Part shown: positions 8,244-42,252 of the stretch, piece by piece
How positions within the stretch are numbered: position 1 is the first letter of the stretch
Layout: every line of letters starts with the position of its first letter
IMG/VR virus record: IMGVR_UViG_3300005264_000040
Span: 113,769-177,768 of that record
DNA from: a virus
Direction: 5' to 3' (one strand)
Length of the DNA: 64,000 bases
Translations under genes and position numbers: made by a program
The notes under the pieces: model-generated
What the model saw: only the letters and a program-made list of their open reading frames with translations
Told to the model about the DNA's origin: nothing
The model's database searches: none

Positions 8244-8324
8244 ATAGGGGTGCGTTTGACGTTCAACGGTCCTATTATATATATATAATAGAGTCGTTGC
8301 CCGTCATTTGCACCCCTTTGAATA
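8244..8324 (+). repeat. 81-bp element, copy 1 of perfect inverted pair
   Basis: Every base from 8244 to 8324 matches the reverse complement of 42172-42252. The element is itself an imperfect palindrome: AGGGGTGC arms, inner GACG..CAACG half-sites, and a perfect 20-bp palindromic AT core at about 8272-8291. It sits between the leftward and rightward promoters. Confidence 0.92.
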
Positions 8325-8337
8325 TGTACGCCATATT
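8321..8337. promoter_or_regulatory. Palindromic operator, AATATG-N5-CATATT
   Basis: Second site of this type in region A (centre TACGC), overlapping the right end of the 81-bp element by 4 bp. Confidence 0.55.
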
Positions 8338-8404
8338 ATGCTGACATTACAAAGATATTACGAACGTAAGGGTTTTCTAAGGTATGAAAAAGAGGAGAAA
8401 TACC

Positions 8405-8434
8405 TTAATTTTCTGAAAAAAATTATGGTATAAT
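8405..8434 (+). promoter_or_regulatory. Promoter for the 8461-20641 operon
   Basis: TTAATT (8405-8410), 18 bp, then TATAAT (8429-8434) with TGG just upstream. TAAGGTA/TACCTTA inverted arms precede and overlap the -35 box. The start codon follows 26 bp later, behind AAGGAGGG. Confidence 0.75.
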
Positions 8435-8460
8435 AATATCGAGAAAAGGAGGGTATAAGT

Positions 8461-11400
8461 ATGGCTGATGACTATGTAAATCAAATTTTTGAAAAACGAA
8501 AGGAAAATATATTATTAGATTTGCAAAATAATATAAATAATGTATGTAATCAATATAGCCAAATGTTGGAAGAAACAGTCTCGGGGAATTTGAATATAAT
8601 AGAGGCTATGAAGAACAACGAAGACTTACAGACATTTTTTAGGCAAACTGCTGCTGATTTGTATCACGTAGCATATGCTGCTGCTTTCGAATCCGGAGCT
8701 ATTCCTTTCGTAGATAAAGTGAATCCTGAACCTGTAGGTGGAGCTTATAAATTATGGCAAGATTTTACTGCTAATTATGAAGTATTTAAAAGTCTTTGGG
8801 ATGAAGACCCTAATAATTTTATAGACCTTGTAAAAAGCACATACTTAACTCCTTTAGTTGATTTTTATAATGATTTTTCAAAAGATATAAAAACTTTATG
8901 GGATTTGACTTTATATATATTAGATTGGATAAACAAATTAAGTGATAAAATGCAAGCAGCTAATGATTTTGACCCTAAGGAAGTTAATAAAATTTTGAAT
9001 AAGCACAGAACTTTGTTTTATAATGCTGCTTATTATATGGATTATGGCGCAATTGATTTATATTATGGATTAAGCCCAAAAACATGGGAAGACTTTTTTA
9101 GTGAATTGAGAGAATATAATAATGAATTAAATGATTTTCTAGAGCCTTATTTTATATCAACCAAACTAACGATAGGAGTTATGAACATTCCAGGTGATTT
9201 TTGTAAAGGAGGAGCTAGTGCTTCTGATATAATTGGACTTTTGGAAGCAAAGACATCTTCTGTCAGCAATCTGACACAATATACTGCTGATGCTACAGGA
9301 TTAGCAGAAGCTAATTTTACACTGAACGATACTTTGTTTGGATTCCAATATTTTTTGTATTCAATGATGGATATGCTTTATAAAACAATAACAAATCAAC
9401 CTGGAGGAAAAGCTTTCTTTTACGAATTTGTAGAAAAATATGAAGCTAAACTTCAAAACTCATACTACGAAACTATTGCAGATGATTTTAAAAGCACTTT
9501 GGACAATCAGATAAAGATAGAAGAAACAAAAACACTTCCAGAAGATAATGAAAAACACTATTTTGAGCCTAATGAAGTACCAACAAGTAAAGTAAAAATA
9601 TTGGGATATTATGATGAATCAAATAATTTTCAAACTTATGTGCTTGAAATTATACCTGCCGGAAAAAAAGTATATTTAAAACAACAAGATTGGGATGTAT
9701 TAAAAGGAAGAACCATAAGTTATGTATATTCATCTGTAGCAGGTTTATCAAAAGTATTTGAATATTTGGATTTTATCATAAATGCAGTGGCATATGCTAC
9801 TGGCGATGAACAAACAAAATTAGATGTTGCTAGTACAAATGATTTTTTAGCAAAATGGTTAGAATATTCAGAAAAAAGGAAAGAAACATTCAATCAAAAA
9901 GGATTATCTGTTTTTAATACATTTGAATACAGGTTGCAATTTATGAATGAATTAGAAACATTAAAAAAAGAATTGAACGATTCTTATTACAAAGAAAACA
10001 AATATGAAAAATTTGATTCAGTTTTGCTTTTTTACAACGATTCTGTAGCTTTTTGGGAAGAGTGGAGTGCAAGGATAGAAGACCTTAGAGTTTTTTCTAT
10101 TCCTGAAATTGTTGATGCTAACTCTTTGAGTTTAGAAGAAAGAGTAAAAATTTTATATAATTTTTTATTAGAAATACCTTATGTCGGATTTGTTGTGTAT
10201 GTACTTGGAGTATCCACAACTTTTTATAAGGAGATGATGAAACAATTAAGGCAGGTTTTAACTCAATTTTGTAAAGATTTATTAAACCCAAGGATGTATG
10301 CATTTTTGGTAGAAAGAGCAGTACCTATACTCACTAATTTTAAACTAGCACTAGAAACTTTTGTTGATTTTTATGAGCAGATGATAAAACCAATAATAGA
10401 TTTTTTAACTAATATGGTTAATATGAATCTTTCTACAATGGAGAAAAAATTAAGAAGTTTTATTGATAACTTTCAAAAAAATGCTTTATATAGATTCGGC
10501 CTTGGAGAATATGTAGATAAATTACAAAATGTTCTAAAACTTGCAGACTGTGTTGTTAAAAATAAAGATTCAGAATTGGAATTGTTAAAAAAAGGATATG
10601 ATGCTCTTATAGGAAAAAAAGTAGAAATGGCACCTACACCTTTTTCAAATAGAGAAGAACCGGATAAAGTTGTAACTTCTAACAATAAAGTTTTAATGAG
10701 CAAAAAAGAGATAGAAACACGAACTCATATAAAGCCTCTTTCTATCACAGAAAAAGAAATGCAATTTTTATTTGGGACAGAAACAGAAGATGATTTTTTG
10801 CGTCAAATTTCAGAAATGAAAGAAATTAACAAAAAAACCACACAGAAGCAGAAACAATATGTGCCACCTGTAACGGTTTTATCTCCTGAAGTATATTTAA
10901 ATGGAGATGCTGAGGAATTGCTAAGAAAAATAGAAGAAATAGATAATAGAACCGGTAATCAAGCAAGCCTTATATTAATGCAAATTGCAGCTGAAGGTTT
11001 AGATAATATACCAGACGAACCTATTAAAGATATACCACCTGAAGCTTCTGAAGAAGAAAAACAACAAATAGAATTAGAAAATGCTAAAAGGGAATTAAAG
11101 AAAACAATAAAGAACTCACCTGATGCTGTAGATTTTTTTGAATTTGAAGAAGAAGATTTTGATTTAGCTGCTTATTATAAAGAACAAAAAGAAAAAACTT
11201 TAGAAGAACAAAGGCAAAAAATGAAAACAGAAATAGAAAAAGCAACCCTTCCTACAAATAAAAACGAAGTAAAAATAACAGCCGGAACTGTTATTGCTGC
11301 TAAATTAAAGAAATCAGAATTTAAACCCAAAACAAATGTTATCATAAATAATAACAATGTACCCAAAAATGAAAATACAGAAACAAACGCAAATGACGTG

Positions 11401-11784
11401 TTACCTTTGGATCCTCAAGAAGTTAATGCTATGGCTGGTATCAAAGAGAAGAAACAAGCTGAAGGCTTAGAATTTACTGAAGGAACTGATGAAGAATTAA
11501 CAAAGACCTCTTTAACCAATACAACATTGATTATCAATAATGTAAGTCCATCTGGTTATCCATCGCCTTCTATTGATGGAGCTACTCACCAAATGGAAGT
11601 ACATCCAGCTGTAGCCCAACTAGTTAATTCTTCTTTTAACGGATTAGAATTAACTTCAGGGGTAGCAGGACAGGTATTAAGTGAAAAAAATAAAGTAGCA
11701 GCTGAAATAGTGAAAAAGACTAAAGCAATAAAAAATAATGAAGTAATAGACGTATTGGCAGCAATGAACTATTTTACTAAGTAA
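8461..11784 (+). CDS. Large virion structural protein of unknown fold
   Basis: The 1107-aa protein opens the rightward baseplate and fibre operon. Residues about 1-700 are rich in Asp, Tyr, Phe and Trp and look mainly helical. Residues about 700-1000 are low-complexity, Glu/Lys/Pro-rich and probably flexible linkers with coiled-coil propensity. The end is more Gly/Ser-rich and compact. No family was recognised. Position directly before a baseplate J-like gene suggests a baseplate wedge or scaffold for the fibres. The ATG at 8461 lies behind AAGGAGGG, 26 bp after an extended -10 promoter. A C-terminal region of this composition could be processed in the virion, which cannot be seen here. Confidence 0.8.
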   Translation: MADDYVNQIFEKRKENILLDLQNNINNVCNQYSQMLEETVSGNLNIIEAMKNNEDLQTFFRQTAADLYHVAYAAAFESGAIPFVDKVNPEPVGGAYKLWQDFTANYEVFKSLWDEDPNNFIDLVKSTYLTPLVDFYNDFSKDIKTLWDLTLYILDWINKLSDKMQAANDFDPKEVNKILNKHRTLFYNAAYYMDYGAIDLYYGLSPKTWEDFFSELREYNNELNDFLEPYFISTKLTIGVMNIPGDFCKGGASASDIIGLLEAKTSSVSNLTQYTADATGLAEANFTLNDTLFGFQYFLYSMMDMLYKTITNQPGGKAFFYEFVEKYEAKLQNSYYETIADDFKSTLDNQIKIEETKTLPEDNEKHYFEPNEVPTSKVKILGYYDESNNFQTYVLEIIPAGKKVYLKQQDWDVLKGRTISYVYSSVAGLSKVFEYLDFIINAVAYATGDEQTKLDVASTNDFLAKWLEYSEKRKETFNQKGLSVFNTFEYRLQFMNELETLKKELNDSYYKENKYEKFDSVLLFYNDSVAFWEEWSARIEDLRVFSIPEIVDANSLSLEERVKILYNFLLEIPYVGFVVYVLGVSTTFYKEMMKQLRQVLTQFCKDLLNPRMYAFLVERAVPILTNFKLALETFVDFYEQMIKPIIDFLTNMVNMNLSTMEKKLRSFIDNFQKNALYRFGLGEYVDKLQNVLKLADCVVKNKDSELELLKKGYDALIGKKVEMAPTPFSNREEPDKVVTSNNKVLMSKKEIETRTHIKPLSITEKEMQFLFGTETEDDFLRQISEMKEINKKTTQKQKQYVPPVTVLSPEVYLNGDAEELLRKIEEIDNRTGNQASLILMQIAAEGLDNIPDEPIKDIPPEASEEEKQQIELENAKRELKKTIKNSPDAVDFFEFEEEDFDLAAYYKEQKEKTLEEQRQKMKTEIEKATLPTNKNEVKITAGTVIAAKLKKSEFKPKTNVIINNNNVPKNENTETNANDVLPLDPQEVNAMAGIKEKKQAEGLEFTEGTDEELTKTSLTNTTLIINNVSPSGYPSPSIDGATHQMEVHPAVAQLVNSSFNGLELTSGVAGQVLSEKNKVAAEIVKKTKAIKNNEVIDVLAAMNYFTK

Positions 11785-11801
11785 GAAAGGAGCGTAAAAT
11801 A

Positions 11802-13382
11802 ATGTATCCTGTAGATTTTGATGTTTTTAAAAAGAATTTCTTTAATCAATTGACAATGATGTATCCTAATATCAATTGGAATGACGAAACCAGTGTTGTT
11901 AAGAATCAAATTTTAAATCCTTTACTTTCAGAATTTGAAAAGGTTTATAAAGATTACACACAGATGTTTAATAATATAGAAAATTTGATGTATAACAATA
12001 ACGATTATGCTTCAGGAGAAACTTTGGATTTCATTGCTTCTTTATATGGATTAAAAAGAAATCCTGGTTCAAAAACCCGAGGCCTTTTAAGTGTATATAT
12101 TCCTTTTGAATTTTACCCTAAAATAGAGGCAGAAGGTTCTTTGATTTTTTCTGATATTATAATTAACATTGAAGGAAAACAATATATAATTCCAAAATTA
12201 CCTATGACAATATCTCATTTGAATACAGGTGTTGTACATGTTGAGTTTGAAGCTTTAGAAAACGGTTCTACAATTTTAGGAATAAACAAAAAAATAAAAT
12301 TTGCTTTAAACCCTGGAGGGGCATTTCAAAATACAATAGAAGTCAATGCCCAAATATTAGATGTGACTTCTGGTGAAGACGAAGAAACAGATGAGAATTT
12401 TAGAAAAAGAATAAACAACATAAAAAATAATATCTATTTAGTAAACAAGCATCAACTTATAGAATATTTTAAAGCAGAAGAGGCAATAAAAGCAGTAGAT
12501 TTTATAGATAATAACAATATTTGGAATTTAAAAGGTATAATTTCACAATATAAAATAGACAGTACAACAGGTGAAATTTTATCCGAATCTGAAATAGTGA
12601 AAGTACCATATGGATATGAATTAAAAATACAAGGTCCGGTTATTACAAAATCGGAAACTAAAACTTTATCTGCAATGACAGCATCTTATTCTATAGATAT
12701 AACTTCACGTTCAAAAACTGTAGTTTCTTACTTGAAAAACAATATCAGTAGATATACTAATTTTATAGATCCTTTTTATGCAGCAACATTTTTAGTATCT
12801 ACAGATACCACAGTGCCTGTATTAACAAATCTTAAATATGTAGAAATAGAAGGGCCATTATTATTTCCTTTGAAAGTATTAAGACTTTTTGATAATAAAG
12901 AATTAGAATATGGCAAAGATTTTATAACTGTAGTATATGAACCTGCAAATGCATTTACCAAGCTTCAAAAAACTATTTTTATATTCAGAGAATCATTACA
13001 ATCAGACATTCAAATAGAATATGTATCTGCAGATTTTAATCGAATTGAAGAACTTTTAAAAAAATTACCATTTGTTGCAAATGCTACCTTAAGTTATTTT
13101 AATCCTATAATGGTTCAATATACTTTTAATTCAGAAAACATTCCAGATTTTTCCGAATTCCAAAGACCAGATTATACATTAACTCCAGGTATAGATATAC
13201 CTTCTAATTACTTAGTACTACAAACAATGGTATCTGCAATGTTACCTACAGGAGGTATTACTCCATTTAAACCAATACCTAATACTACCACTATCTCAGA
13301 CGCTTTAAACACTTTAGGTATAGTAGATTATCCTCCTTATAAGTTTTACACCGTAGGGCAGCTTCTAGGAGGCGGAGAATGA
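11802..13382 (+). CDS. Baseplate J-like protein
   Basis: The 526-aa protein matches the baseplate J / T4 gp47-type family, wedge components that link the tail hub to the periphery. Evidence is the N-terminal helical domain ending GETLDFIASLYGLKRNPG (about residues 67-85), a beta domain with GSTILGINKKIKFAL, and the family hallmark SGEDEETDENFRKRI at about residues 190-205, followed by a helical region. Length fits the family. The ATG follows AAAGGAG; the gene lies 17 bp after the previous one and is followed by a connector-like gene and the fibres, as in other baseplate clusters. I am confident of the family, less so of the exact location in the plate. Confidence 0.88.
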   Translation: MYPVDFDVFKKNFFNQLTMMYPNINWNDETSVVKNQILNPLLSEFEKVYKDYTQMFNNIENLMYNNNDYASGETLDFIASLYGLKRNPGSKTRGLLSVYIPFEFYPKIEAEGSLIFSDIIINIEGKQYIIPKLPMTISHLNTGVVHVEFEALENGSTILGINKKIKFALNPGGAFQNTIEVNAQILDVTSGEDEETDENFRKRINNIKNNIYLVNKHQLIEYFKAEEAIKAVDFIDNNNIWNLKGIISQYKIDSTTGEILSESEIVKVPYGYELKIQGPVITKSETKTLSAMTASYSIDITSRSKTVVSYLKNNISRYTNFIDPFYAATFLVSTDTTVPVLTNLKYVEIEGPLLFPLKVLRLFDNKELEYGKDFITVVYEPANAFTKLQKTIFIFRESLQSDIQIEYVSADFNRIEELLKKLPFVANATLSYFNPIMVQYTFNSENIPDFSEFQRPDYTLTPGIDIPSNYLVLQTMVSAMLPTGGITPFKPIPNTTTISDALNTLGIVDYPPYKFYTVGQLLGGGE

Positions 13383-13441
13383 TGTTTTTTGATGCTCACA
13401 AATTTTGGGAAAAGTTATGTCTTACAACATCCGAAATATAA
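13379..13441 (+). CDS. Possible 20-residue leader ORF overlapping two genes
   Basis: ATGATG at 13379 has an ideal AGGAGG (13367-13372) 6 nt upstream and opens a 20-codon frame ending at TAA 13439-13441. It overlaps the end of the baseplate J gene by 4 bp and runs past the start of the next gene in another frame. It may couple translation of the two genes, or be chance, because the AGGAGG is also made by Gly codons of the upstream gene. Confidence 0.3.
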   Translation: MMFFDAHKFWEKLCLTTSEI

Positions 13442-14193: not shown

Positions 14194-14198
14194 GGAAT

Positions 14199-16238: not shown

Positions 16239-16242
16239 TTTT

Positions 16243-30000: not shown

Positions 30001-32457
30001 AGGTTCTTGAAGTTTAGTAATAGCAGCTTGTTCAGGCAAATCTCCTACTTGACTTATATTTTTCCCGGTTACATCATATTCTGTTTCGCCTACTTGTTCT
30101 ACAAGCAAATGTCCATCATATGAATACCAATCTTTAGAAGCTTCAAAAACTTCTACTGTTTCATTTATACAATGTTGGTACATATTTGCTATTTCAAATG
30201 ATTTATCAATTTCGCTTACAATTGAATTAATTGCATCTATGTTTATTTTCTTATTTATTCCGTAAATAGCTACAAAACACTCTATATTTTTAGTTTTTTC
30301 TGAAAATTGTGATAAATCATCCAATGATATAAACATTGTATTACCATCACAACTATTAATTTGAGTTTCAATATTTTGTTGTTTTTTCCATGTTCCTATA
30401 AATTCTGAATCTATAGAAATATTCGAAAAATGTTTTATATAAGATTCAAAAAATAAACTTGTTTCTGAATACATTATATTTGTCAAATTTATAGGCAATT
30501 CATAAAGACCTCGGACTGTATGTAAAAAAACATCTAATTCATTTTCTGTTTGACCTTTTTTTGTTGCAAAAGAATCAAGAGTTATATCCTGCACTGTAAC
30601 ACTTTTTATTGTTTCATATATATTTGTAGGATAAGTTAAAAAGTTTTCATCAAATTCTTTAATTTCAAATCCATATTCGGAAACGGTTATAGGATGAACA
30701 GATGCCCCTCTTCCAGTATAAACATTTCTTCCAAAAGAAATTGCTGCCAAAAATTGGGTATTAGCAACATACGAAGTTAAATCTAAATCAAACACATAAT
30801 CATCAACATACATTCTCCATTTATTTTCTTCATCTAATTTTAACCCTATTTCTAAAGTATCTCCTTCTTTTTTTGACAATAAATGATTTATCAAAGGATG
30901 CGGACCGGACGCGTGAGCATCATATCCATATATTTCATTGTTATTATAACTTACTCTAATTGAATCTAATTCATCACCATGTCCAGCCATCCACCAAAAA
31001 TAAAGTCTAGGATATCCTGCGTAATTTGTAGTTCCGTCTGGAGCATCAAATGAAAATCCTATTCTTTCTTGATTGTCAAAGAAATTGTCTCTTGAAAAAT
31101 CTTTATCTAAATATAATTTTACATAAACTTTCTTTAAATTAGAAACTAATAATTGATTATCGTTATGAGGACGAAAAGCAAAATTCCATCTTTCATCGTT
31201 CCACGCAAAATAAGTACTAGAAGCAAGTTGCAAATCTTCTTTTGCTAATTTGTTTTCTTTGAAAGTTTTTACAGTTCCAATAGTTGATTTAGTAAAAGTT
31301 GCTCCATTAAAAGTTTCAAGTTTATTTCTGAAGTCTGGCACTTTCTCTGTATGATGATAAATTTTCAAATAGCCATCTGAGTAAAATAATAATGTATCGT
31401 TATTTTCATCTATTGCTTGAAAATAAAAAGCTGAATTGTCCTCATTGCTATTAATAAAAGAAATATCCGAAAATGAAAATTCGGTAGGAGAAAACGTATT
31501 ATTTACAGCGTCATATTTGTAAAGAGTATTATCTAATCCGTAGTACAAAGTGTTATTTATAAAGGTTCCATGTTGAACTTCGCCAGTAAGGCTACGAGCC
31601 AACCAAACGCTTAAATCACTGTAATTAAGTATCAAATATCCTTCGTTTAATAGAATAACTATTCTGTCATTTACTGTTTCTTGAAAAAGAATTTTATATA
31701 CATAATTATTGCCTACAGTTTCTGTAGTAGGATTATATTTTATAACTGTTATTTTTTCGTCACTAGTATAATTTAAAATTATAAATTCTCCTGTTTTAGT
31801 TTTTATCAATTCTCTACGGGGACTAGTAACATTTGTAGAAGGATAATTTTGAGAAAATTTTTCTGTTACTGTCCCTGAACTATAATCAATTTTTAAAAGT
31901 TTTACACTCTTCGAAACTTCATCAGAAAAAGCAAAATAAGCTATATTGTTTTCTAAAACCGGAGTTCTATAAGATATACGATAAACTGAATTTATATTGT
32001 ATGGAACGGTAATCTTCGAACTTTCATCTATTGTATGGTCTGATAACAAATCATACAATTCAAATCCATTTTCAGTTATAGCAATACCTTTGTTATTTAA
32101 TTTGTCAATAGTAAAAAAAGTGGAAGAATTAAAACTCAAAGTTTGTATTACATTTACCTGAGAATTATTCCAGTCATACTCCAAAATAAATACTTCATAA
32201 AATTTATTAGAAGAATCATCTTTTTCATATACAAATGCTAAAAATCTTGAATCTCCTAAACTTATAGCGTTTTGAAGATATAAAGCAGTTAAATTAGTTG
32301 CTTGAAGCGGCAGAGAAAAGGTTATTTTATTGTTCGTTAAAGGATCTACTAAATAAAACTCATTTGTAGTTCCAAGGTAATTTCGAACTAATATATACGA
32401 ATCAATTTGGAAAATATAAGTGTTCGAAAGGTTCGAATCATAATATTTGGCAATCAT
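24019..32457 (-). CDS. Giant fibre protein: propeller-like start, lectin-like domains, LQ[YHW][ST] repeats
   Basis: About 2812 aa. Residues about 1-385 show repeating beta blades like a propeller. About 400-1400 hold several jelly-roll, concanavalin/LamG-like units recognisable from patterns such as RLYFWWMAGHGDELDS and RLRWFFASGHGGNIDT. A LamG-like unit near 1770-1815 reads LIASYVFNEGYGYKVYDG. About 1820-2640 is made of degenerate repeats of about 14-17 residues around LQ-Y/H-S/T (VLLQYSATNN, NALQYSLLNS, EILQHSLAQT, DFLQYTITEQ). The C-terminus (about 2680 on) is a compact module shared in pattern with the 141-aa protein at 23501. I infer a very long glycan-binding virion fibre. The start is ATG 32457, 8 nt after AAGGGGG. 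It has its own promoter. Confidence 0.83.
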   Translation of the reverse strand: MIAKYYDSNLSNTYIFQIDSYILVRNYLGTTNEFYLVDPLTNNKITFSLPLQATNLTALYLQNAISLGDSRFLAFVYEKDDSSNKFYEVFILEYDWNNSQVNVIQTLSFNSSTFFTIDKLNNKGIAITENGFELYDLLSDHTIDESSKITVPYNINSVYRISYRTPVLENNIAYFAFSDEVSKSVKLLKIDYSSGTVTEKFSQNYPSTNVTSPRRELIKTKTGEFIILNYTSDEKITVIKYNPTTETVGNNYVYKILFQETVNDRIVILLNEGYLILNYSDLSVWLARSLTGEVQHGTFINNTLYYGLDNTLYKYDAVNNTFSPTEFSFSDISFINSNEDNSAFYFQAIDENNDTLLFYSDGYLKIYHHTEKVPDFRNKLETFNGATFTKSTIGTVKTFKENKLAKEDLQLASSTYFAWNDERWNFAFRPHNDNQLLVSNLKKVYVKLYLDKDFSRDNFFDNQERIGFSFDAPDGTTNYAGYPRLYFWWMAGHGDELDSIRVSYNNNEIYGYDAHASGPHPLINHLLSKKEGDTLEIGLKLDEENKWRMYVDDYVFDLDLTSYVANTQFLAAISFGRNVYTGRGASVHPITVSEYGFEIKEFDENFLTYPTNIYETIKSVTVQDITLDSFATKKGQTENELDVFLHTVRGLYELPINLTNIMYSETSLFFESYIKHFSNISIDSEFIGTWKKQQNIETQINSCDGNTMFISLDDLSQFSEKTKNIECFVAIYGINKKINIDAINSIVSEIDKSFEIANMYQHCINETVEVFEASKDWYSYDGHLLVEQVGETEYDVTGKNISQVGDLPEQAAITKLQEPISLRRYGSTEIELDLLFKNEGTYCYLYYFKDGLQLYFDQTDDHNFNFDKSIGVGIYSPYMYNGRFDYAAFVGNSVVKTIDFRQIDNPETGEPLPVIPSGQHLKLKIKIENRIAYYYIYDVLIHTQTIPEGVSELTHIGLRFNRLAYGFYLYRYQIQSLKVTRHVSEPYFDIMINTLGMQTTQNLDVNVNGYSSTSKEISEVAPLLVHNKTFVNFTEGYWKTDFNSNAEPLITEIGFNGKNEPIFEMEHPVWNNYIYSDEDKYISAAFKFEGSNKLNLVSFKNGDYFYFKHHHKADSLVELKYLSIAAGLAFSNEENTNIVASPKRLRWFFASGHGGNIDTSVIYLNDEIIEDTVNIEIFETATDLLWGLEKENGILYFVMKDADTNEYVFKYDLSETITNPKDYTLDWLYYENDAYGTYSQYKMKLNGIDTNISTDTKKPFDVRVYVPVSLEISTDFSDLIQMPVRENNISLSYYPLVNARQFFDIVVNTTDLGTSIFVEGQTKQYNNKEIPIDAYVQSLNYPLKYDRKIKDIQTPLKAKYLIESPVNRESVMLKIPEQFFVERFGFNLNDMTNISVVKPDGSVVPAVVTDNATYIGPVNLTTGLNEFWIQPNTNKSFTTYERHIDYWAYDTILNTYFKELPNAKLIYHNTFLEIDEKPASYNDLSNAGIIYEFDNEFTEDFVLDLPKMEWADSIDAVRGLGVVLKDGTEYLLVAEDNASNDGNYDSLKVYKVTSTNPDGVVVANVDIFPDDDININKSASFKIQRIDGSTNFYINNELIFTTDAITQNATAVKIINAVYSTTDNGPIAIRPYVQAFQPFKGIQFNSDYILTVPLENIDKTNKDYTIYAKAYWNSVANAAGLISIKNEAAAPSEEYQSQENDFIQLNDAPAVGLHDIVVKRINGEYHLYIDGTEIDITTAETDVPVSINLIGYVPDNYFLDKIYDLKIWEADVEPASADATNLIASYVFNEGYGYKVYDGVNDVTGEIVGDPTWLTKETEYYTWLKSIKELNTDVILLQYSATNNLAESAVLQTTVLSEAVQTNALQYSLLNSNIDLADMLQYTKILNQLTEYTLQHSMKSSEVALLLKLYSSEFVDFDVVMNQYNQLKNDLDTISLQVGHVPLTVEDSNTLQRSEYTKFFDVMMMPTEQYSLYIGNYTLHVGLSSEIDVDVFNSQYSIYDLQVAAETLQHTLEKLDFESLTKQFSEYLLSVYSEMKTYSHTDINIDNSVMVSGLSSSLLLDNEILQHSLAQTNIESSDLWHQNIEYSIFFNATVTSYELFNLFIDTKSKITGLSDTKDIYVDFLQYTITEQIMELEMYQNLRRSVHLIANNLISSDTDNILESIINGYVLQQNLIESYYVTLLKNQIENATMQAITSIKDIVAKEYVSHSLETPFNVQNLIHTALDAMDLEVTNSVFSLLEKTIETEMLQFTELTNSIESTEYASLLYSTIFDTNIEAETNESVRINLQLVQAGILSSISGDIYNSIWSKESQDITSELYSYIGQKFDIEAIPVHLMGTNIEFDSVHYIYGIQTTQDIDTIELQWSKYTLSTEAEMYVSHLLESQFDINILDYTLISNIFEAEIVAATQVLEYPLDVFNYIYGLSSSINVETENTQYSKTENIIESHIIVINPAKISDIVSEMFQKSSINNNFDVYGMILDITKQIELESTAYILGLKSEIDIDNIIKQTSVYDKAIFNYFLSYGTLMKYIESIVFNLAIASSRYLDTQVFVFGEESTKFISSINSIFLEEHQNIDIYNLSFELLENIILNKTLQNSIYTNIFDIDILSYSQYSLDLDIYNNINSFKQLLIEGYSLADIDHQKLITCQQLPEKSIDVDLDTYIATNDTKINRLDAFMNQFYKQNTNAKFMSNLRQLMQADKPIDSILSGANTAISVTIFKNNANAQLELTINGKKLLIEAGQTVKVYGWWKEVMTNYSTIITDVHMNDNHLFHSDFGWLEVKFTEDLTTINDSFDNETIVYMRDNLIPYYRG

Positions 32458-32497
32458 ACACAAAACCCCCTTGTAGATTTTAATATTTCATATGGTT

Positions 32498-32565: not shown

Positions 32566-35500
32566 TTACCACATAGTTCCTTCTTTTATTTCATTGATAT
32601 AATCAGAATAATCAAGTTCTCTTGTGTCTCTTTCATCGTTTATTATAGTTGTGACATACCCATAAATAACATCTATTTTCGCATATTTATTAATATAAAT
32701 TTCTTTTCCGTTATCTACATATTTTATTTTTCTTATATATTGTCTTACGTTAGGATATGCTAAGAAGAAATCTTCCCATTTCAACATAGAAGATACTCCC
32801 CAACGCGGAACTCCTATTACATATTTTCCAGCAACCATTCTTACATCTTTAGAACTGTGATTGAGGAATAGAGTAGCTTTTTTCTTTATAACTTTTACTA
32901 CAGTCACATTAATTCCTTTCATTATTCTATGGTGAGTTAAAATGTTTGCTAATTCCATTGGATGTTCTTTTTTACTATGATGCATTTCCATTCCTTCAAT
33001 GAGATTTTCGGTTTTTATACCACAATGCTTAGGAACACTTTCTATACTATTTTCAGAAACAGAAGTTTGGAAAATGCTATTTTCTAAAACATTAGAATGA
33101 GTTACAATTATCATTAATGGTGCATTTTCGCTTAATTCAATATTTTGTTTTACGTAGGCAGATATCAAAGAATATTCAATAGGATGTTTTGCATTCCTTA
33201 TTAACCATAATTGCCATTCAAAATCTTTTTCGTCTTCAGAGTGCTGTAATACATATCCATCAAAAGTTTTAGATAAATGTCCAGCCATTACAACTCTTGA
33301 ACTTAACCAATTTGCAGTTTGAATATCATCCCAAAGTACTACACTTTCAATGTTTCTTTCAGAAGAAATACCTTGCCAATACAATGGAGCATTTAGAATA
33401 TTCCTTTTTCTAATTGCATATTGAGTTGCAATAGGTAAATCTATATCTATTTGCGTACTGAAATGTGACCATATTATCATATCAATTGGAATGTCTGCTT
33501 TTATGTAAGTATTGAGGTTTGAAATAGTTAAATATGCATTATTAGGATTATTAGGCCCTGAATCGGTTATAGTTATTTCTACACCTTTTAAATCCATAAT
33601 TTTATATTCTGGTTTGTTGTATTCTATTAGTTGTGCATGCGTTATAGAATTACTATTTTCATCCCTTAAAGTGTAATTAAATATTACCCCATTGCTTAAA
33701 TGTTTCAAAGTTAGTTTTACATGTATGTTTTGAGAAGTGGAAGCAAATCCATTCAAATTAGTTGTAGTTCTGTTTTTGGATAATTGGTCGTATTCTAGGA
33801 TTGGTTTATAGGAAGTTCCAAAAGGAATAAAGTAACGCAAAATCCCATCAAACCAACTTATAATTTGATTTATACTATAATCAATATTTAAATCAGCACT
33901 TACAAGAGGAACTTCCTTATTCCAGGATAACCTTGTAATCATATGGAATGGAGCATCCAATTGTCCAAATGGCACTTCAGAATGTATATCAAATTCTAAT
34001 GTAAATTGCAAATTCTTTAATGGACCGCTTAATGGAGTTTCTTTATATAATGTCAAATCTTCTCTATCAGTAAAATCTAGAGAAATCGCATTTCCATTTA
34101 TTATTACAGGTCCAGTAGCATTCCAGTTTTCATAATCATTTAGTTTGTGTATTGTAAAATAATTGCAAACTACATGTTGATACAGATCAGCAAACTCAAA
34201 TGTGTTTTCTTTCGAAACAGGAATAACTCGTATTAAATCTAACCATGGTTGTGGTTCTGGTTTTATATCTGTAATCTTCACCATACAGTCAATCATATTT
34301 GCATTTGAAGAAACACGTTGGATTAAATTAGCAAACTCCATATTTTTTTCTTTATGTTGCAGCCAAGACACATGAGATATTATAGTAATTTCGTTCGATA
34401 ATCCAAAGTGTTTTGGAGTTGAATCAAGTTTTGTCATTTGGGTTGAACGTTGCAATTGATTAGCTAATATAACATATAAAAATCTTTCAACTAAATCAGC
34501 TGCATAAATATCCATATCTATTTTTCTTTCAATATTTGGCCACAAACGATTTGCTTCAAATGACAATTCTTTTTTGTGTAAGTGCCAAATATCCGAAGAA
34601 ACAATGTTTAAATCCCGTGTCATAAAGTATGTTCTAACAGCATCTATTATTGGTGGTTTATTATAACCTGCGTAAAAATTCATATTTTTTAAATAAATAG
34701 GTTGTAGGCTTGTTAGATTTTTTGCGTCAAATTCTATTCCAAATTCTACTATATCTATAAATTTCTTTTTAAAGAAATTATCAGTTGATAAATCGGTTCC
34801 TACACTGTTTGATGTATTTAAAGAATCATCAATTCTATATCTATAACCAACAATATTTTTTAATCTGAAATCAGTTTTTATACCTATAGTATGCGAATAA
34901 TTAGTAGTACCCCATGTTCTAATCCTATTACCATTAGGATCATCAATATACATACTTGCTCCATAATAAGTACTTAAACTGTTTATACCATATTTATAAA
35001 CATAACCTTCTGAATCTTTAAAATAAACATACATAGCTGAAGCGTCAGTAAAAGGCATATAATAAGTAACATCAAACATTATCCTGTGAAATTTAAGAAT
35101 AGAAAATCTTTTATACATAGGAAATTTGATATACCCTTTTGTAAAACCATTTTCCAAATCTACTTTTATTTCTAAACCATCTTCGGTATAATTATAAATT
35201 AATCCTTCAATTGTAGAACTGGAAGGTAGTTGTTGCTGTATCAAATCCAAATTCATTTCTTCGTAATCATTTGGTTTTACTGAATATAAAACCTCTAAAT
35301 AACAATCAATAGGTACCTGTTGTGTTAGTGCTTGGTATGTTTTTATTAGCCCCGTAGGGATATCAATAGAACGTATGATTGAAGGTCTTTGAATCATGAC
35401 ATCTATTGTGTTTGGGTTTTGGATTTGAATGGAAAATTCTTTTAACCATATAGTATCTCTATCAATATGACTAATCCAAATCTGTACATTTTTTAAATTC

Positions 35501-38500
35501 GCGCTTCCTATTACTTCATAAGGCATTTCTCCTATCTTTATTCCATTTACATATGCTTCATATATTTTGTTGGAATATTTTACTAAAAATACTAATTCCT
35601 CTGAATTTTGATCATTTATAACCATATCTAATTCTGGTAATTGTGTTGGGAGATTATAATCAGTTCTCCAACCTACAATACCAATTTCGTTAGGTGGATA
35701 ACTCCATTGAAATGATGTACGAGCAATATTTAACCCCATTTTTTTTATTGAAATATTATGTAGATCTGGTTCAAATCCAACATAGAAAGCTGTATCATTT
35801 GAAAAACCTAAGAAAACTCCAAATTCAAAATCAGGATTATTCATTAATTTCTCTTTATCGATTCTGAAAACAGTTACGTATTTTATTTCAGAATCAAAAT
35901 CATTCATTGGATTTATCTGTGCAGAAACTGGCAAGTTATATTTCCATGAACCTCTAAAATTAAAATAATACCAAACTAACATATAGTCCCCATGGGATAC
36001 ATGCTTTATTTTTTCAAAAGTATTTAATGTTGGATCTATATTAAAAATACAGATAGAACCATCACTTTCGTCCTTATAATAATTAATATTTGGAGTTAAT
36101 TTACTCCATGGATAAAAAGCAAATGAATCTATAGGAGTTCCAAAATATATTTCAGCATCAAAAAAAGGTGCCCCATTTACAATATTCAAATATATTGGAT
36201 GACAATAAAACATATCTAAAGAATGTGTTCCTACTTGGCTAACATAAGCTTCCATTACATTTTCAGTTTTAGAATATTGAGAAACATCTATATCAAGGAC
36301 TTCAAGGTTCAGCCATGCTACTATATTTTCCATAGTTTTTAAAATAATGCCTATAACAGCAAATGTAGATATGTAACCAGCAAAAGAGAAAGATTGAACT
36401 TTTATATTTGTAAGTTCATTAAATTGATAAAAACCATCAGTTAAATCTCCTTCAATTCTAAGATTATTTACATACATAAATATACGGCCATCTTCTTCTT
36501 TTTTTAAATGGAGATAAATAGAATCTCCGTCTTTTAAAAAATTTAAATAATCAAGCACATCTTGCGCATTCGTTATTTCAATGTCTGTATATACTCCATC
36601 TTTCCTATAATATAAACGTTGATTTACTATAAGAGGATTCCCATCTTGCACATTAGTAGTTTCAAAAGTATATACAATAATATTGTCATAATAAAGCATA
36701 TAAGTTCCATTAGGTTTCCAATTTGGATTATCAAATTCATATATTATACCTATTTTTTTTATATCGTTATTTTTATAATTTTTCAATTGATAAACAAAAC
36801 CGAATTCTTTGAATTTTTCAACTGTTAATTTTTTTGGCAATGTATAATTATTATTGCTATAATAATCGTATGTCCATGAAATAATATTTGGATACATATA
36901 AATCTTTTCGAATAAAGCATTTTCATTAAAATATGTTCCATAATAATGATTTTCAATTGGGGCATGACCCCACATAAAGAAATGAGTTTCATTTACTTTA
37001 GGGAATTCTGTTAATCTTTGTTTCAAATTAGAATTTTTTGTCTCGTTTTGTGTAAAATGCACTACTTTACAATCAATTGGTATTTCTTCTTTGTTTCCTG
37101 AAATCATTATCGAACTTTCAAAATATATATCGTTTATTTCAAGTTTAACTCCAAATTTATAATCGGCAGAACGTGAATACCTTACTGAAGTATATGCTAT
37201 ACCATAAATTCTATCTGTATCATCTACATAAGTAGTAATATCAAAAGATGCATACTCATTTTGTTCATCTATTGATAAAATTTTGAAATAATATTTTTCG
37301 TTTATTTTTGATATTTTCATTACTACTTGCTCGTCGTACAAAGGATCGAACCAAAAAGTTTCATCTCCTATTGATATAAATCTTCCCGAAAAATAAGGTT
37401 TGTTATAAGAATTTCCATTGTTCAATGTAAATGCAATGTGCTTTCCTTCCCATGGATTATCAAAATTATCACTTAGCAAAAACCATAACCTTATATAAGT
37501 ATATGTGTTTGAATTATAATTTTCATGATTGTAATAAATTTTAAAGTTTTCTAGTGGTATCAAAAAATTAAATTTATGGGCAAATATAATTTTATTTTTA
37601 GACCAAGAATAAGGCCATGCAGCTGGTCTTATATTTGAAAATTGGACTTCATATTCATTGTAATAATCAATGTAATTTTCATAATCACTCCTGTAATCGG
37701 TTTTTGGAGTAGCTGCCATTTTTCCTACAGTTGTTTGTTGGAACATTTCAGGTAATATAAATGTATTGCTCATCCTTGGCATAACGATACTTTTTAAGGA
37801 ACCTCTATCTTTAAATTTTACATACAATTTTGTTGTTTGTGCGGAAAAATCATAACGTGATTCATATCCTATTGTAGTTATGTAATTATATTGTTCTAAA
37901 GCATCATGAATTTCAAATTCTTTGAAAAATATTCCATCTACATGATAATACCATCTTTCATATTCATCTCTTTTTATACCTATTCTGAACGTATCCCCTG
38001 CATGCAATGACATTAAATGCTGATTAATAGGATGATCCGGATTATCATAAAAAATAGAATCAGTATAAACATTTCTAGTTGCAATTATCCTATCTACAGG
38101 TTTTTCCTGGTTGTTGTTTGTAGTACCAATTTCAAATTCAAAATATTGTGGTGGAACGCTATCTGTATATTTATTAAAATTATCGCAATCAAATGTAATT
38201 CCTAGCAAACTCATTTGCCAATTTTCATAAGTGAAATCTTCATTGATTTGAATTTCTAAACTTACTTCTTCTAAATCTTTTAATATTAATGGAGTATGAT
38301 TCCAACCATCTTGCCATGTTCTTAACATAAAATCATACCATGACCAAAGACTTCTATCCCCATCTTTTTCTATTATTAATGTTTGAACAAACTCCGAATT
38401 ACTTATTCTACTCCATGTAGGGGCTAACTCAAAATAATGCACTGTACCGTTATAATATCCTCCATAATCTCTATAATCTCCCGCAAAAAAACTTGTAGCT

Positions 38501-38532
38501 ATAGGAGTATATACATTAGCTAAATTTGGCAT
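32566..38532 (-). CDS. Giant fibre protein with lectin-like domains and LQ-type repeats
   Basis: The 1988-aa protein carries several beta-sandwich, lectin-like units over about 1-1200; repeated phrases include RIGIKRDEYERWYYHVDG, VAFTLNNGN-like loops and MYVYFKDSEGYVYKYGI. Shorter stretches of the neighbours' repeat occur between and after them (DIDVSQYSKTENVM, YVLQHSEDEKDFEW, LANQLQRSTQMTKL). The last about 70 residues (RKIKYVDNGKEIYINKYA, YVTTIINDERDTRELDYSD) match in pattern the end of the 1128-aa protein, so both share a C-terminal module. ATG 38532 follows GGGAGTGA, 6 bp after the upstream gene. Role inferred: side fibre or spike binding host surface sugars. Confidence 0.8.
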   Translation of the reverse strand: MPNLANVYTPIATSFFAGDYRDYGGYYNGTVHYFELAPTWSRISNSEFVQTLIIEKDGDRSLWSWYDFMLRTWQDGWNHTPLILKDLEEVSLEIQINEDFTYENWQMSLLGITFDCDNFNKYTDSVPPQYFEFEIGTTNNNQEKPVDRIIATRNVYTDSIFYDNPDHPINQHLMSLHAGDTFRIGIKRDEYERWYYHVDGIFFKEFEIHDALEQYNYITTIGYESRYDFSAQTTKLYVKFKDRGSLKSIVMPRMSNTFILPEMFQQTTVGKMAATPKTDYRSDYENYIDYYNEYEVQFSNIRPAAWPYSWSKNKIIFAHKFNFLIPLENFKIYYNHENYNSNTYTYIRLWFLLSDNFDNPWEGKHIAFTLNNGNSYNKPYFSGRFISIGDETFWFDPLYDEQVVMKISKINEKYYFKILSIDEQNEYASFDITTYVDDTDRIYGIAYTSVRYSRSADYKFGVKLEINDIYFESSIMISGNKEEIPIDCKVVHFTQNETKNSNLKQRLTEFPKVNETHFFMWGHAPIENHYYGTYFNENALFEKIYMYPNIISWTYDYYSNNNYTLPKKLTVEKFKEFGFVYQLKNYKNNDIKKIGIIYEFDNPNWKPNGTYMLYYDNIIVYTFETTNVQDGNPLIVNQRLYYRKDGVYTDIEITNAQDVLDYLNFLKDGDSIYLHLKKEEDGRIFMYVNNLRIEGDLTDGFYQFNELTNIKVQSFSFAGYISTFAVIGIILKTMENIVAWLNLEVLDIDVSQYSKTENVMEAYVSQVGTHSLDMFYCHPIYLNIVNGAPFFDAEIYFGTPIDSFAFYPWSKLTPNINYYKDESDGSICIFNIDPTLNTFEKIKHVSHGDYMLVWYYFNFRGSWKYNLPVSAQINPMNDFDSEIKYVTVFRIDKEKLMNNPDFEFGVFLGFSNDTAFYVGFEPDLHNISIKKMGLNIARTSFQWSYPPNEIGIVGWRTDYNLPTQLPELDMVINDQNSEELVFLVKYSNKIYEAYVNGIKIGEMPYEVIGSANLKNVQIWISHIDRDTIWLKEFSIQIQNPNTIDVMIQRPSIIRSIDIPTGLIKTYQALTQQVPIDCYLEVLYSVKPNDYEEMNLDLIQQQLPSSSTIEGLIYNYTEDGLEIKVDLENGFTKGYIKFPMYKRFSILKFHRIMFDVTYYMPFTDASAMYVYFKDSEGYVYKYGINSLSTYYGASMYIDDPNGNRIRTWGTTNYSHTIGIKTDFRLKNIVGYRYRIDDSLNTSNSVGTDLSTDNFFKKKFIDIVEFGIEFDAKNLTSLQPIYLKNMNFYAGYNKPPIIDAVRTYFMTRDLNIVSSDIWHLHKKELSFEANRLWPNIERKIDMDIYAADLVERFLYVILANQLQRSTQMTKLDSTPKHFGLSNEITIISHVSWLQHKEKNMEFANLIQRVSSNANMIDCMVKITDIKPEPQPWLDLIRVIPVSKENTFEFADLYQHVVCNYFTIHKLNDYENWNATGPVIINGNAISLDFTDREDLTLYKETPLSGPLKNLQFTLEFDIHSEVPFGQLDAPFHMITRLSWNKEVPLVSADLNIDYSINQIISWFDGILRYFIPFGTSYKPILEYDQLSKNRTTTNLNGFASTSQNIHVKLTLKHLSNGVIFNYTLRDENSNSITHAQLIEYNKPEYKIMDLKGVEITITDSGPNNPNNAYLTISNLNTYIKADIPIDMIIWSHFSTQIDIDLPIATQYAIRKRNILNAPLYWQGISSERNIESVVLWDDIQTANWLSSRVVMAGHLSKTFDGYVLQHSEDEKDFEWQLWLIRNAKHPIEYSLISAYVKQNIELSENAPLMIIVTHSNVLENSIFQTSVSENSIESVPKHCGIKTENLIEGMEMHHSKKEHPMELANILTHHRIMKGINVTVVKVIKKKATLFLNHSSKDVRMVAGKYVIGVPRWGVSSMLKWEDFFLAYPNVRQYIRKIKYVDNGKEIYINKYAKIDVIYGYVTTIINDERDTRELDYSDYINEIKEGTMW

Positions 38533-38538
38533 ATTCTA

Positions 38539-41500
38539 TCACTCCCAATGTAAAGAATTATCATTTTGAATTTCATCTAAATCTCTTGGATCATTAATTA
38601 CAACTTTTGCATAAGTATAATAAATATCTAATACACCTTCTGCGTTTTGATATGTTACATTGCCATTTTTAACAATACGTCTTACTATATCTTTATCTAA
38701 TAAATTTTGTACAAGTTTTTCATCTATTTTGTACAAATAAGCCATACTATAAGAATCTAAATTTTCTTCCATTCCAGGTAATGTAATGATTTTATCTGAA
38801 TAATTCACAAATTTTAAAGCTTCTACTTCTAATACCAAAACGACTTGTGAATCTATTTCATTTTTTTCTCTGTAGAAAATATGAACATCAGAATAAAGTT
38901 TCCTATAACTCATTGTAATTGGAATTGTTGTACTTATTATTTCATTTTGCAATTCTTTCTGAATCGCATATTTTGCATCTATAATTTGAGGTAATTTGTG
39001 ACTAAGTATAAGTTGTAATTCTACATTGTTTTGCAATATTCCATAATTACTGTTAAATGTGTTTATGTTTATATCATCAATTATCTGAGATTTAGAATAA
39101 ACACTTAATAATTTCATTTTTGGATTATCGTTTATAATCTGAGAATTTATTGTGATTGTTTTTTTGATTTCATATTGAAGTTCCATTAATATATTTTTAC
39201 TTTTGTTTATAGTTTTTAATATTGTTAAAGCTTTAATTTGGTTATTCCTAAACAAATGATAAATAGGTCTTTCTACAACTGTAGTATAAACATTTTTTTC
39301 TACGAGAGTTACTATTTTATTATGTGCTTCCAAAATTATACTTCTTAATTTTGAAGTTGCATATATTGCGTTTATTGTGTTTGATTTCATAATTTCTTTT
39401 AAATATAAATCCATTTGCAGATTGATCATCTTTCTCATATTCAAAATAATATCTGAGCAAAATTCAACTGCTGTTTTTGAATAAATAGAATTATTTGTTC
39501 CTATTCCTTTTGTGTCTAGGATTCCTAACAATTTAGAATAAGAACCAACTAACATTGTATCTTTCGCTATATATTGAGTTTCCAAATAAAGCTTTTTTCT
39601 TTCACTATGATAAATTGTGCATTCTATGTTTTTTTCATGTTTGACGATTTGTTTCACTCTGCTATTAAAACTTAAAAATTTGGTTTTTAAGAAGAATAGA
39701 TATAATTGATAATACTTAGGTAATTCCTTCAAAGGAGTTGTTCTTATTAAGAATTCCGGATAATCTCTAACATCGTTATAAATAGCCCACATTGAACCAT
39801 GTATAAAATAAATTTCCTTATTTGGATTATAACGAGAAAATTCAAACCAAGCTGGAGTTTCTACTCCATATACAAAAGAATTTGTTGTGTATTCTTGCTC
39901 AAAAAGCACATCAGTTCCTTCAAATTGCAAAACATGATAAGCTGGAATAGCAACTTTCTTTCCTCTTAAATTTACAGTTATCGTTGAAGAAGTTGGATTT
40001 ACAACGTTTGTTGAAGGAATATATTGAATTTCATAGGCTACAGCCCCTATTTCTATTTTATTCACAAAAGTAGATTTAGCTATTGCTTTTACATTTTTAT
40101 AACTAACAGTGTTAAATAGCAAATGTGTATTTAAATTATTATTTGATGAAAAGGTACCACACAAAATCCCATTAAGTTCTAAATTCCATTTTGCTGTAAT
40201 ATTTTCATATATATCCATGCCTAATTCTTGTGAAACTACTTTAAAAATATCAGCTAATATAGGAGCTTTTGGTCGTGGTAATATTATCATATCAGATTCA
40301 AAATAATTAGATATTTTAGATACTATAGAAGTATAGTAAATATCAATAAACGCTTTTTGTAAAGGTGAAACTTTTTTTAACCAAGAATAAATTCCTCTAT
40401 AATTATGATCGTCATAAAAAGCTACTTCAGATACTATCGTTTTCTTTTTTAAGAAAGTTAATGAAGTAGCAACATCCAAGTTGTTTTCTTGGGTTATTAT
40501 CCTTGCTATTTTAATATCTAAAAATTTCTGCATTCTATAAAACTTTGATATTATTGCTCCAATAAAAATAGAAACATCTTCTATTTTAGAAACTCCAACT
40601 TTTAAATCTTTTTTTGTTGATAAATTAGGCCACAAAACATATGCTGTGAAATCTATATTTGGTATGTATTTAGGAGCAAAAATATAAACACTAGCTGGAT
40701 GTGCTTTGTCTGTATCTGTTCCTACAGGTATGATTGCATTAGGATAGAAAATTTGATACCCTTTTAAAAATACAATATTTCCCCAAGTATCACCATGTCC
40801 TAAATAAATCAAACCTTCCATAAACTTGCTATATGAATGCAAAGAGTCATAAATTTCAAAAGAATCATACCCAGAAAAAGCTAATAATTTATAAGGATCA
40901 AACCATGTTCCGTAAAAATAAGAATAATTATATTTAAATGGTTCGGATATAGGAACTATTCTTTCTCCATCATCTGACGGTTTTACATATATTGTAGAAC
41001 GTCTTGTTCCGGATTTTGCAAAAACAGGCAGAAAATTCGGATTATATTGTACTATTGCTGGTTGTGGGAAAAAACCTTGCATGTAATCAGGCAAGAAACC
41101 AAATAAATCAGTCATTGATTTTTTATCTTTTACTGTTATTTCCTTTGTGCTTAAATCTATATTCAAAAGATATACAAATCTATCTGAAGTTAAAATTAAC
41201 CTTGTATTACCTACCCAAGCACCTACATAAGGTGTATTTAAAATTAAAGCAAAACCGTAATCATCTATTACGGTTGCAGGTCCCATATCATATCCAGTAA
41301 CATGCCAATCATTAAAGTCTTGCCCAAAACTTATATATCTTATTTCTTTTGAAGTATAGATAGAGTTAGATGTTGCATTTATAATCAACATCTTATTATT
41401 AGGAGAAAAAACTATAGGAGAACTTACCATGTAAGGTGGAAACCCACCTATTAACCTTACTTCTCCTGTTCCATTATTAATTTCTATCAAATAAGTTTCT

Positions 41501-41925
41501 GGAGCTAACCTGTTGAAAAAATACATATACCTTTCGTTAGAAAAGAAAGGCACAGGGATTAAACCATTTGGAATATCTATCTCAAATGGAAAGTCAAATC
41601 TGTAAGGAGTAAAAGATGTTAATGTTGGATCTTGAATTTCATCAAGTCTCAACAACGTAATATGATCAGAAGCTATTTCTAAAGTACCAGATACATTATT
41701 TCCTGAAACTTGTCCAGGAAAGTTTCCAATTCTATAAAAGTTTAAGTTCCTATCTTTTATGTAATCATATAATAAAGCATTAGGTTGTATCTCAATTTGG
41801 AATGTTCCAGTGCCAGCATATGGATACAACCACATTTTATTTAAATCATCACTGCTTCTAACTATACCTATATTTTCTTTCCCGGATACAAAATGGATAC
41901 GGTATCCACCAAAATTATATATCAT
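38539..41925 (-). CDS. Large fibre protein: propeller-like N-terminus, repeat region, shared C-terminal module
   Basis: The 1128-aa protein starts with a propeller-like beta region (about 1-400). The middle has diverged repeats of 14-20 residues (for example LLSVYSKSQIIDDINI, YGILQNNVELQLIL) and around 640-690 a small NPTSSTITVNLRGKKVAIPA module like that near the end of the other giant proteins. It ends KNGNVTYQNAEGVLDIYYTY then VVINDPRDLDEI, paralogous to the end of the 1988-aa protein. The start is ATG 41925, 8 nt after GAGG; an upstream GTG at 41934 overlaps the site. It leads the leftward fibre operon from control region B. Confidence 0.8.
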   Translation of the reverse strand: MIYNFGGYRIHFVSGKENIGIVRSSDDLNKMWLYPYAGTGTFQIEIQPNALLYDYIKDRNLNFYRIGNFPGQVSGNNVSGTLEIASDHITLLRLDEIQDPTLTSFTPYRFDFPFEIDIPNGLIPVPFFSNERYMYFFNRLAPETYLIEINNGTGEVRLIGGFPPYMVSSPIVFSPNNKMLIINATSNSIYTSKEIRYISFGQDFNDWHVTGYDMGPATVIDDYGFALILNTPYVGAWVGNTRLILTSDRFVYLLNIDLSTKEITVKDKKSMTDLFGFLPDYMQGFFPQPAIVQYNPNFLPVFAKSGTRRSTIYVKPSDDGERIVPISEPFKYNYSYFYGTWFDPYKLLAFSGYDSFEIYDSLHSYSKFMEGLIYLGHGDTWGNIVFLKGYQIFYPNAIIPVGTDTDKAHPASVYIFAPKYIPNIDFTAYVLWPNLSTKKDLKVGVSKIEDVSIFIGAIISKFYRMQKFLDIKIARIITQENNLDVATSLTFLKKKTIVSEVAFYDDHNYRGIYSWLKKVSPLQKAFIDIYYTSIVSKISNYFESDMIILPRPKAPILADIFKVVSQELGMDIYENITAKWNLELNGILCGTFSSNNNLNTHLLFNTVSYKNVKAIAKSTFVNKIEIGAVAYEIQYIPSTNVVNPTSSTITVNLRGKKVAIPAYHVLQFEGTDVLFEQEYTTNSFVYGVETPAWFEFSRYNPNKEIYFIHGSMWAIYNDVRDYPEFLIRTTPLKELPKYYQLYLFFLKTKFLSFNSRVKQIVKHEKNIECTIYHSERKKLYLETQYIAKDTMLVGSYSKLLGILDTKGIGTNNSIYSKTAVEFCSDIILNMRKMINLQMDLYLKEIMKSNTINAIYATSKLRSIILEAHNKIVTLVEKNVYTTVVERPIYHLFRNNQIKALTILKTINKSKNILMELQYEIKKTITINSQIINDNPKMKLLSVYSKSQIIDDININTFNSNYGILQNNVELQLILSHKLPQIIDAKYAIQKELQNEIISTTIPITMSYRKLYSDVHIFYREKNEIDSQVVLVLEVEALKFVNYSDKIITLPGMEENLDSYSMAYLYKIDEKLVQNLLDKDIVRRIVKNGNVTYQNAEGVLDIYYTYAKVVINDPRDLDEIQNDNSLHWE

Positions 41926-41956
41926 ATCCGCCACCTCGTTCTTTTCTTTTCACATT

Positions 41957-41987
41957 ATTATATCACACAAAAAAGTTAATATGCTAA
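41957..41987 (-). promoter_or_regulatory. TTAGCA-type promoter for the 41925 operon
   Basis: On the minus strand TTAGCA (41987-41982), 19 bp, TATAAT (41962-41957), TGA upstream of the -10; 32 bp before the start codon. Confidence 0.8.
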
Positions 41988-42032
41988 TAACAGTTTTCGG
42001 ATACTTTCTTAACAAAGAGGACATATGTACTT

Positions 42033-42049
42033 AATATGGCGTACATATT
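42033..42049. promoter_or_regulatory. Palindromic operator, AATATG-N5-CATATT
   Basis: Third copy of the site in this window (centre GCGTA), placed in region B as 8079-8095 is in region A. Confidence 0.55.
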
Positions 42050-42075
42050 TCAATGGAAATATCACTGTAATGTGC

Positions 42076-42149
42076 ATAAACAGTACTTTTAAACGTATGG
42101 TCTTGACATTTACATACCACTCTTAGAAAGGCATTTCTATACTGTTTAT
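42076..42149. repeat. 10-bp inverted arms 54 bp apart
   Basis: ATAAACAGTA at 42076-42085 is the exact reverse complement of 42140-42149. It occupies the same place between operator and 81-bp element as the 12-bp arms in region A. Confidence 0.55.
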
Positions 42150-42171
42150 TATACGATCGTCGCAAATCCGC

Positions 42172-42252
42172 TATTCAAAGGGGTGCAAATGACGGGCAAC
42201 GACTCTATTATATATATATAATAGGACCGTTGAACGTCAAACGCACCCCTAT
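42172..42252 (-). repeat. 81-bp element, copy 2 of perfect inverted pair
   Basis: Exact reverse complement of 8244-8324 over all 81 bases; homology drops at both ends (first mismatches at 42171 and 42253). Confidence 0.92.

Follow-up and report, generated by a model that had tools for sequence, protein, structure and literature searches.

Near-identical palindromic elements as putative replication origins around the chromosome of a large tailed phage

A stretch of 64,000 nucleotides of viral DNA (the window; bases 113769-177768 of the 177,768-base virus record IMGVR_UViG_3300005264_000040) contains one 81-bp sequence twice, in inverted orientation and 34 kb apart, which raises the question of what function this sequence serves. 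Coordinates preceded by "record" refer to the full record and, unless a relative is named, all others to the window. A preliminary description, made from the letters alone, had reported the repeat and offered a shared switch, a replication origin or a recombination site as its possible role. A repeat search confirmed the inverted repeat itself, with arms at 8244-8324 and 42172-42252 that are complementary at 81 of 81 nucleotides, whereas about 7e-35 exact inverted pairs of this length are expected by chance in 64 kb at the composition of the window. The analysis presented here leads us to regard the element as probably one of five near-identical putative replication origins placed round the phage chromosome.

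The record as a whole holds five copies of the palindrome, each of about 100 bp, centered at record 3333, 43524, 62271, 122049 and 155982. The pair in the window corresponds to copies 4 and 5 and copies 1-3 lie outside it, with identities among the five of 77-100%, depending on the pair and the orientation compared. The five element sites are the sole strong, loop-free long palindromes in the record, and a shuffled record contained none. As described previously, each element is an imperfect palindrome; its self-match is about 80% and its center is CTATTATATATATATAATAG. The 20-bp core and the loss of similarity beyond the 81 bp were correctly recognized, yet a one-sided similarity to other copies extends further, for 105 nt in the comparison of record 43458 with 155917 and for 277 nt (78%) in that of record 43484 with 122090. 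The elements are built from GGGGTGCnnnTGACG boxes on both arms, which face inward to the A/T core. This core is the same in all five copies and has A or T at 18 of its 20 bases, in a single uninterrupted 18-bp run, and we propose it as a candidate duplex-unwinding stretch. The heptamer GGGGTGC occurs 12 times in the record, ten of them inside the five elements and all of these facing inward.

In the window, copy 4 (8244-8324, plus strand; record 122012-122092; similarity to copy 1 from 8230) comprises a left arm of type A with the box GGGGTGC...TGACG (8244-8271, plus strand), the core (8272-8291) and a right arm of type B with the inverted GGGGTGC...TGACG box (8292-8319, minus strand). Copy 5 (42172-42252, minus strand and thus inverted with respect to copy 4; record 155940-156020; similarity to copy 2 from 42149) has its core at 42205-42224. 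All arms belong to one of these two types, and the positions at which A and B mismatch are largely constant across copies. An RNA hairpin was considered as the function of the palindrome and rejected, without covariation analysis, as the same arm mismatches are kept in every copy, which favors protein binding over pairing; no Rfam family matched the window or the loci of the other copies. In copy 3 (record 62262) the outer arm segments have changed places with respect to the inner ones, which points to past recombination between the arms. An accessory motif, M (AAGCATAATATGGCATACATATT), adjoins four of the five copies (record 3511, 43711, 121841, 122089 and 155795, two of these at copy 4) and is always oriented toward the palindrome, while the remaining matches in the record, with up to six mismatches, all fall within genes. 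Within the window it faces copy 4 at 8073-8095 (plus strand) and, inward from the other side, at 8321-8343 (minus strand), and with five mismatches it faces copy 5 at 42027-42049 (plus strand). All five copies are intergenic. The element had been placed exactly where transcription diverges, which holds for the two copies of the window but not for the other three, which lie between co-directional genes.

Searches of phage records, viral contigs and bacterial genomes with the element sequence itself found no relative; 20 matches among the viral contigs were judged to be chance. Searches via the ThyX, the 1107-amino-acid neighbor or the terminase found no close relatives of the window's phage. 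Relatives were gathered via a profile of phage RNA polymerase, which gave 68 viral contigs; Vibrio phage D181 and Salmonella phage Arash are among the named relatives with the best polymerase coverage. Nine relatives carry dispersed intergenic repeat families of their own, eight of them revealed by whole-record self-comparison, with five copies each in Arash, G024, G010 and G012, four in G028, three in D181 and at least two each in G020 and G022, whose contigs end within the repeat; the ninth, G021, is described below. The sequences are not conserved, being unrelated to the element in the window and mostly unrelated among themselves, but the layout is conserved in all nine: an A/T core, with TATATA runs in these eight, between inverted arrays of short lineage-specific boxes, which read GTTGTAACC in Arash and G024, GGTACGT in G010, TGTGTCG in G012, TTGCAACATT in D181 and TGTCCA in G028, G020 and G022. 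The cores of the relatives are the lowest-GC or near-lowest 40-bp windows genome-wide, every full copy lying at or below the 0.11th percentile. Orientation is uniform in Arash, G024 and G010, where all five copies point the same way. The elements of the relatives occupy co-directional, divergent and convergent intergenic gaps, the convergent cases being Arash 138580, G024 168560, G010 43505 and D181 125520.

All five element loci are syntenic across Arash, G024, G010 and G012, and several of them also in G028, D181, G020 and G022. The coefficient of variation (CV) of the gaps around the circle is 0.07 in Arash, G024 and G010, 0.20 in G012, 0.16 in G028 and 0.07 in D181 with its three copies, far more even than random placement, for which the medians are 0.64-0.75 (P values of about 7e-5, 0.004, 0.007 and 0.007). 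These tests are partly non-independent owing to the shared synteny; D181 and G028 are evenly spaced with fewer copies. For the window's phage, whose record is possibly incomplete, the CV is 0.40 (P 0.057).

Copies within a genome resemble one another closely, at 87% identity in Arash and 90% in G024. Between these two phages, elements at the same locus are 70.4% identical and elements at different loci 70.1%, in genomes that are 81.6% identical where aligned, so that the sequence of an element does not reflect the ancestry of its locus. Arash and G010 have the five loci in common and their aligned DNA is 73.5% identical, but the elements are unalignable (41%), which indicates that the sites at the five places were replaced together. 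Such joint turnover is what would be expected of binding sites of one trans-acting protein that are homogenized by recombination. The exact match of the two copies in the window (81/81) is consistent with concerted evolution, and it is in this form that the earlier suggestion of recent copying or exchange finds support.

The presence of an element is further associated with the replicative helicase. All five relatives without a detectable repeat family (G001, G029, G007, G017 and G026) have a DnaB_C domain (PF03796), which was found in none of the ten element-bearing phages, namely the window's phage and the nine relatives, G021 included (Fisher P 3e-4). The nine relatives instead carry a fusion of a Toprim primase to an ATPase; the version of the Arash clade, 965 amino acids long, joins a DnaG/Toprim primase (PDB 2au3, E 4e-15) to a P-loop ATPase at its C terminus. 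G021 has the fusion and no DnaB; a repeat was then looked for in this genome and found as predicted, in two 536-bp copies with TGTCCA boxes around an A/T core. The window's phage encodes a protein of 1409 amino acids (record 55040-59269) with a primase-like N terminus (phrog_849, weak) and SF2-like motifs seen by eye. This protein had no Pfam helicase match, its helicase part was confirmed by no library, and HHalign gave no alignment of it with the Arash fusion. As a separate observation, G025 (224.5 kb) has neither DnaB nor the primase-ATPase fusion, and no clear dispersed family was found in it. G023, G004 and G009, in which neither DnaB nor a clear family was found, are fragments and little informative.

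We then considered strand asymmetry, fitting third-codon GC skew jointly with gene strand and comparing the right with the left of the elements. In the window's phage, the skew of plus-strand genes is 0.210 to the right and 0.058 to the left, and that of minus-strand genes is -0.007 and -0.126, respectively. Random sets of five intergenic positions were as strong in 0 of 5000 cases in the circular model and in 0.14% in the linear one, as were 0.2% of rotations, and dropping any single element weakens the skew coefficient (circular model). This switch has the sign anticipated for bidirectional replication from the elements, although it is not universal.

A replication origin, one of the roles first suggested, is therefore favored by the spacing, the helicase association, the boxes with their A/T cores and the skew in the window's phage. 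A putative phage initiator would bind the inverted boxes of both arms, bend and open the A/T core, and load or work with a non-DnaB primase-helicase, whereupon replication forks would set out from every origin in parallel. Exchange between copies, by homologous recombination or gene conversion, would maintain identical boxes that fit the initiator, and would account for the 81/81 match as well as for the swapped arm segments of copy 3. One candidate box-binding protein of the window's phage has 406 amino acids and a C-terminal HTH_17 domain (record 5129-6349) and is encoded 1.8 kb from copy 1; no relative of it was found in phage records. The primase-helicase fusions are further initiator candidates. 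For the group as a whole, we think it reasonably likely that large RNA-polymerase-bearing phages have three to five near-identical, evenly placed origins in concerted evolution, with the box, and presumably the initiator, swapped wholesale between close relatives and a primase-helicase replacing DnaB.

Several observations weigh against the origin interpretation. The window's phage is distant from the Arash clade and sits on a long branch in the tree, and its element may therefore be an analogue rather than a homologue of the Arash-clade elements. By the tree, the correlation between DnaB and the element amounts to only about two independent lineages, and, as the contig of the window's phage is linear and may be incomplete, the absence of DnaB from it is not proof; the label of primase-helicase for its 1409-amino-acid protein comes from motifs seen by eye and a weak PHROG match. 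No phage DnaA was found and no initiator protein was identified. The one fast-evolving core protein considered, an Arash protein of 291 amino acids, was tried as the box-binding partner and rejected as a metallophosphoesterase. The gene for the latter (Arash 73556-74431, with orthologues) is in its own right an outlier among the core proteins, at 81% identity to G024 but only 44% to G010. With regard to strand asymmetry, the third-codon signal is absent from all six relatives tested, only three of the five elements of the window's phage have a minimum of the cumulative skew within 1.4 kb, and raw GC skew was inconsistent as an origin test and was superseded by the strand-corrected one. The skew test is also one of several, and gene direction correlates with the elements.

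We weighed these data against other functions. A shared transcription switch, in which the element would be an operator or a bidirectional promoter for the phage RNA polymerase or a phage regulator acting on a few operons, appears unlikely. In its favor are the divergent setting of both window copies, the multi-subunit RNA polymerase that these phages encode themselves (in the window's phage a single chain that unites the beta and beta' parts), and an extended -10 promoter-like motif, TTATGGTATAATAATATCGA, found 150-200 bp downstream of copies 3 and 4. This motif lies outside the element, at 8423-8442 (plus strand; record 122191) between copy 4 and the gene to its right, and is identical at record 62465 (3' of copy 3), but it recurs with two mismatches at record 163829, where there is no element. 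The claim of a shared switch is further at odds with the three co-directional copies of the window's phage and with the relatives, whose copies are co-directional, divergent and in several cases even convergent, an arrangement unexpected for a promoter; nor would it call for just three to five evenly spaced copies per roughly 180 kb. T4-type phages do carry dispersed intergenic palindromes in a large genome, the PeSL cassettes, whose stem-loops carry early promoters, but the elements described here are also found between convergent genes. Rather improbable, in our view, are partition or chromosome-organizing (centromere-like) sites, bound by a phage protein and evenly placed to organize or anchor the genome: these would be consistent with the even spacing, the independence of gene context, the inverted boxes and the co-evolution, but would give no reason to expect such extreme A/T cores, a link with the type of replicative helicase or a skew switch.

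The dispersal of the copies in both orientations, their unequal extension past the core and the swapped arms of copy 3 could also suggest a mobile palindromic repeat, resembling a miniature inverted-repeat transposable element, or a functionless relic of recombination or gene conversion. RVT_1 genes occur in eight relatives and lie near an element in G012, G020, G022, G028 and G021; however, Arash, D181, G024 and G010 have elements without a reverse transcriptase, and a retron-type enzyme as the necessary cause of the repeats was rejected on this ground. The copies are moreover evenly spaced, and the loci of the Arash group, syntenic over Arash, G024, G010 and G012, stay occupied despite full replacement of the sequence, which makes a mobile or relic sequence very unlikely. 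The window's phage itself encodes a retron-type reverse transcriptase (record 36607-37626, RVT_1; best PADLOC match RT_III-A). We would give just as little credence to sites of recombination, inversion or packaging. The identical inverted copies could invert the intervening 34 kb, and concerted evolution is evidence of exchange between copies, but copies in the same orientation, as in Arash, G024 and G010, would lead to deletion and not inversion, and for packaging one site suffices and five are not needed.

Returning to the surroundings of the putative origins, copy 4 is flanked by genes for proteins of 887 amino acids on the left (5287-7950, minus strand) and 1107 amino acids on the right (8461-11784, plus strand), the next gene downstream of the latter encoding a baseplate J-like protein. 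Copy 5 lies between a gene for a 1131-amino-acid protein (38539-41934, minus strand) and one for a ThyX-type thymidylate synthase (42345-43004, plus strand). The phage has a GC content of 29.6%, a contractile tail (sheath, baseplate J), a terminase and ThyX. Other features of its genome are the giant open reading frames of the window, of 3202 (50096-59704), 2814 (24019-32463) and 1988 amino acids (32566-38532), and a gene for 1110 amino acids with long internal direct repeats at offsets of about 63 and 126 bp (record 86590-87867). Immediately left of copy 1, a 542-amino-acid protein (record 1646-3274) carries conflicting names, HNH endonuclease in PHROG and DUF2201 metallopeptidase/VWA-like in Pfam.

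Individual traits of this arrangement are known from other systems. In satellite phage P4, the short boxes of ori and crr are bound by alpha, a fused primase-helicase-initiator, and a second distant box cluster is required. The boxes and the primase fusion are common to both cases, but P4 has a small genome with two clusters, and we do not claim homology of alpha to the fusion. The origins of phage T4 differ among themselves in sequence, unlike the near-identical copies here. T4 likewise has several initiation sites on one large chromosome, and its origins involve R-loops (PMC3016281). Bacillus phage SPP1 has the distant origins oriL, within the initiator gene, and oriR, which are served by one initiator, G38P, together with the helicase G40P and its loader G39P (PMC3485210). 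It too has distant repeated origin regions on one phage chromosome, but these are two in number and come with the phage's own helicase and loader, whereas all copies described here are intergenic and no DnaB is detectable. The layout resembles that of herpes simplex virus (HSV), with three redundant OriS/OriL copies in which inverted boxes surround an A/T-rich spacer and the initiator UL9 is an SF2 helicase (PMC12543377). The likeness lies in the redundant copies per viral chromosome, the inverted boxes flanking an A/T spacer and the palindromic layout; HSV differs in being an animal virus with three copies and UL9, as opposed to tailed phages with three to five even copies, only candidate initiators, and boxes of unrelated sequence that are replaced between close relatives. 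The element may thus work in a manner resembling OriS/OriL, although no homologous initiator was found and homology to the HSV or SPP1 origins is not claimed.

In the publication on Arash, a term search found no mention of the repeats or of replication origins, and among the papers searched there was no fitting report of a phage genome in which repeated origins are evenly spaced. To our knowledge, phages have one main origin, or secondary origins unlike it. If the origin interpretation is true, the phages described here would be multi-origin replicons with several equal origins, which would be very unusual among phages. They would provide a system in which to study why and how a virus maintains several even origins, and would show how the specificity of an initiator and all of its sites shift together and how replication without DnaB is organized. 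Salmonella phage Arash is in culture on a laboratory strain, which makes the idea directly testable.

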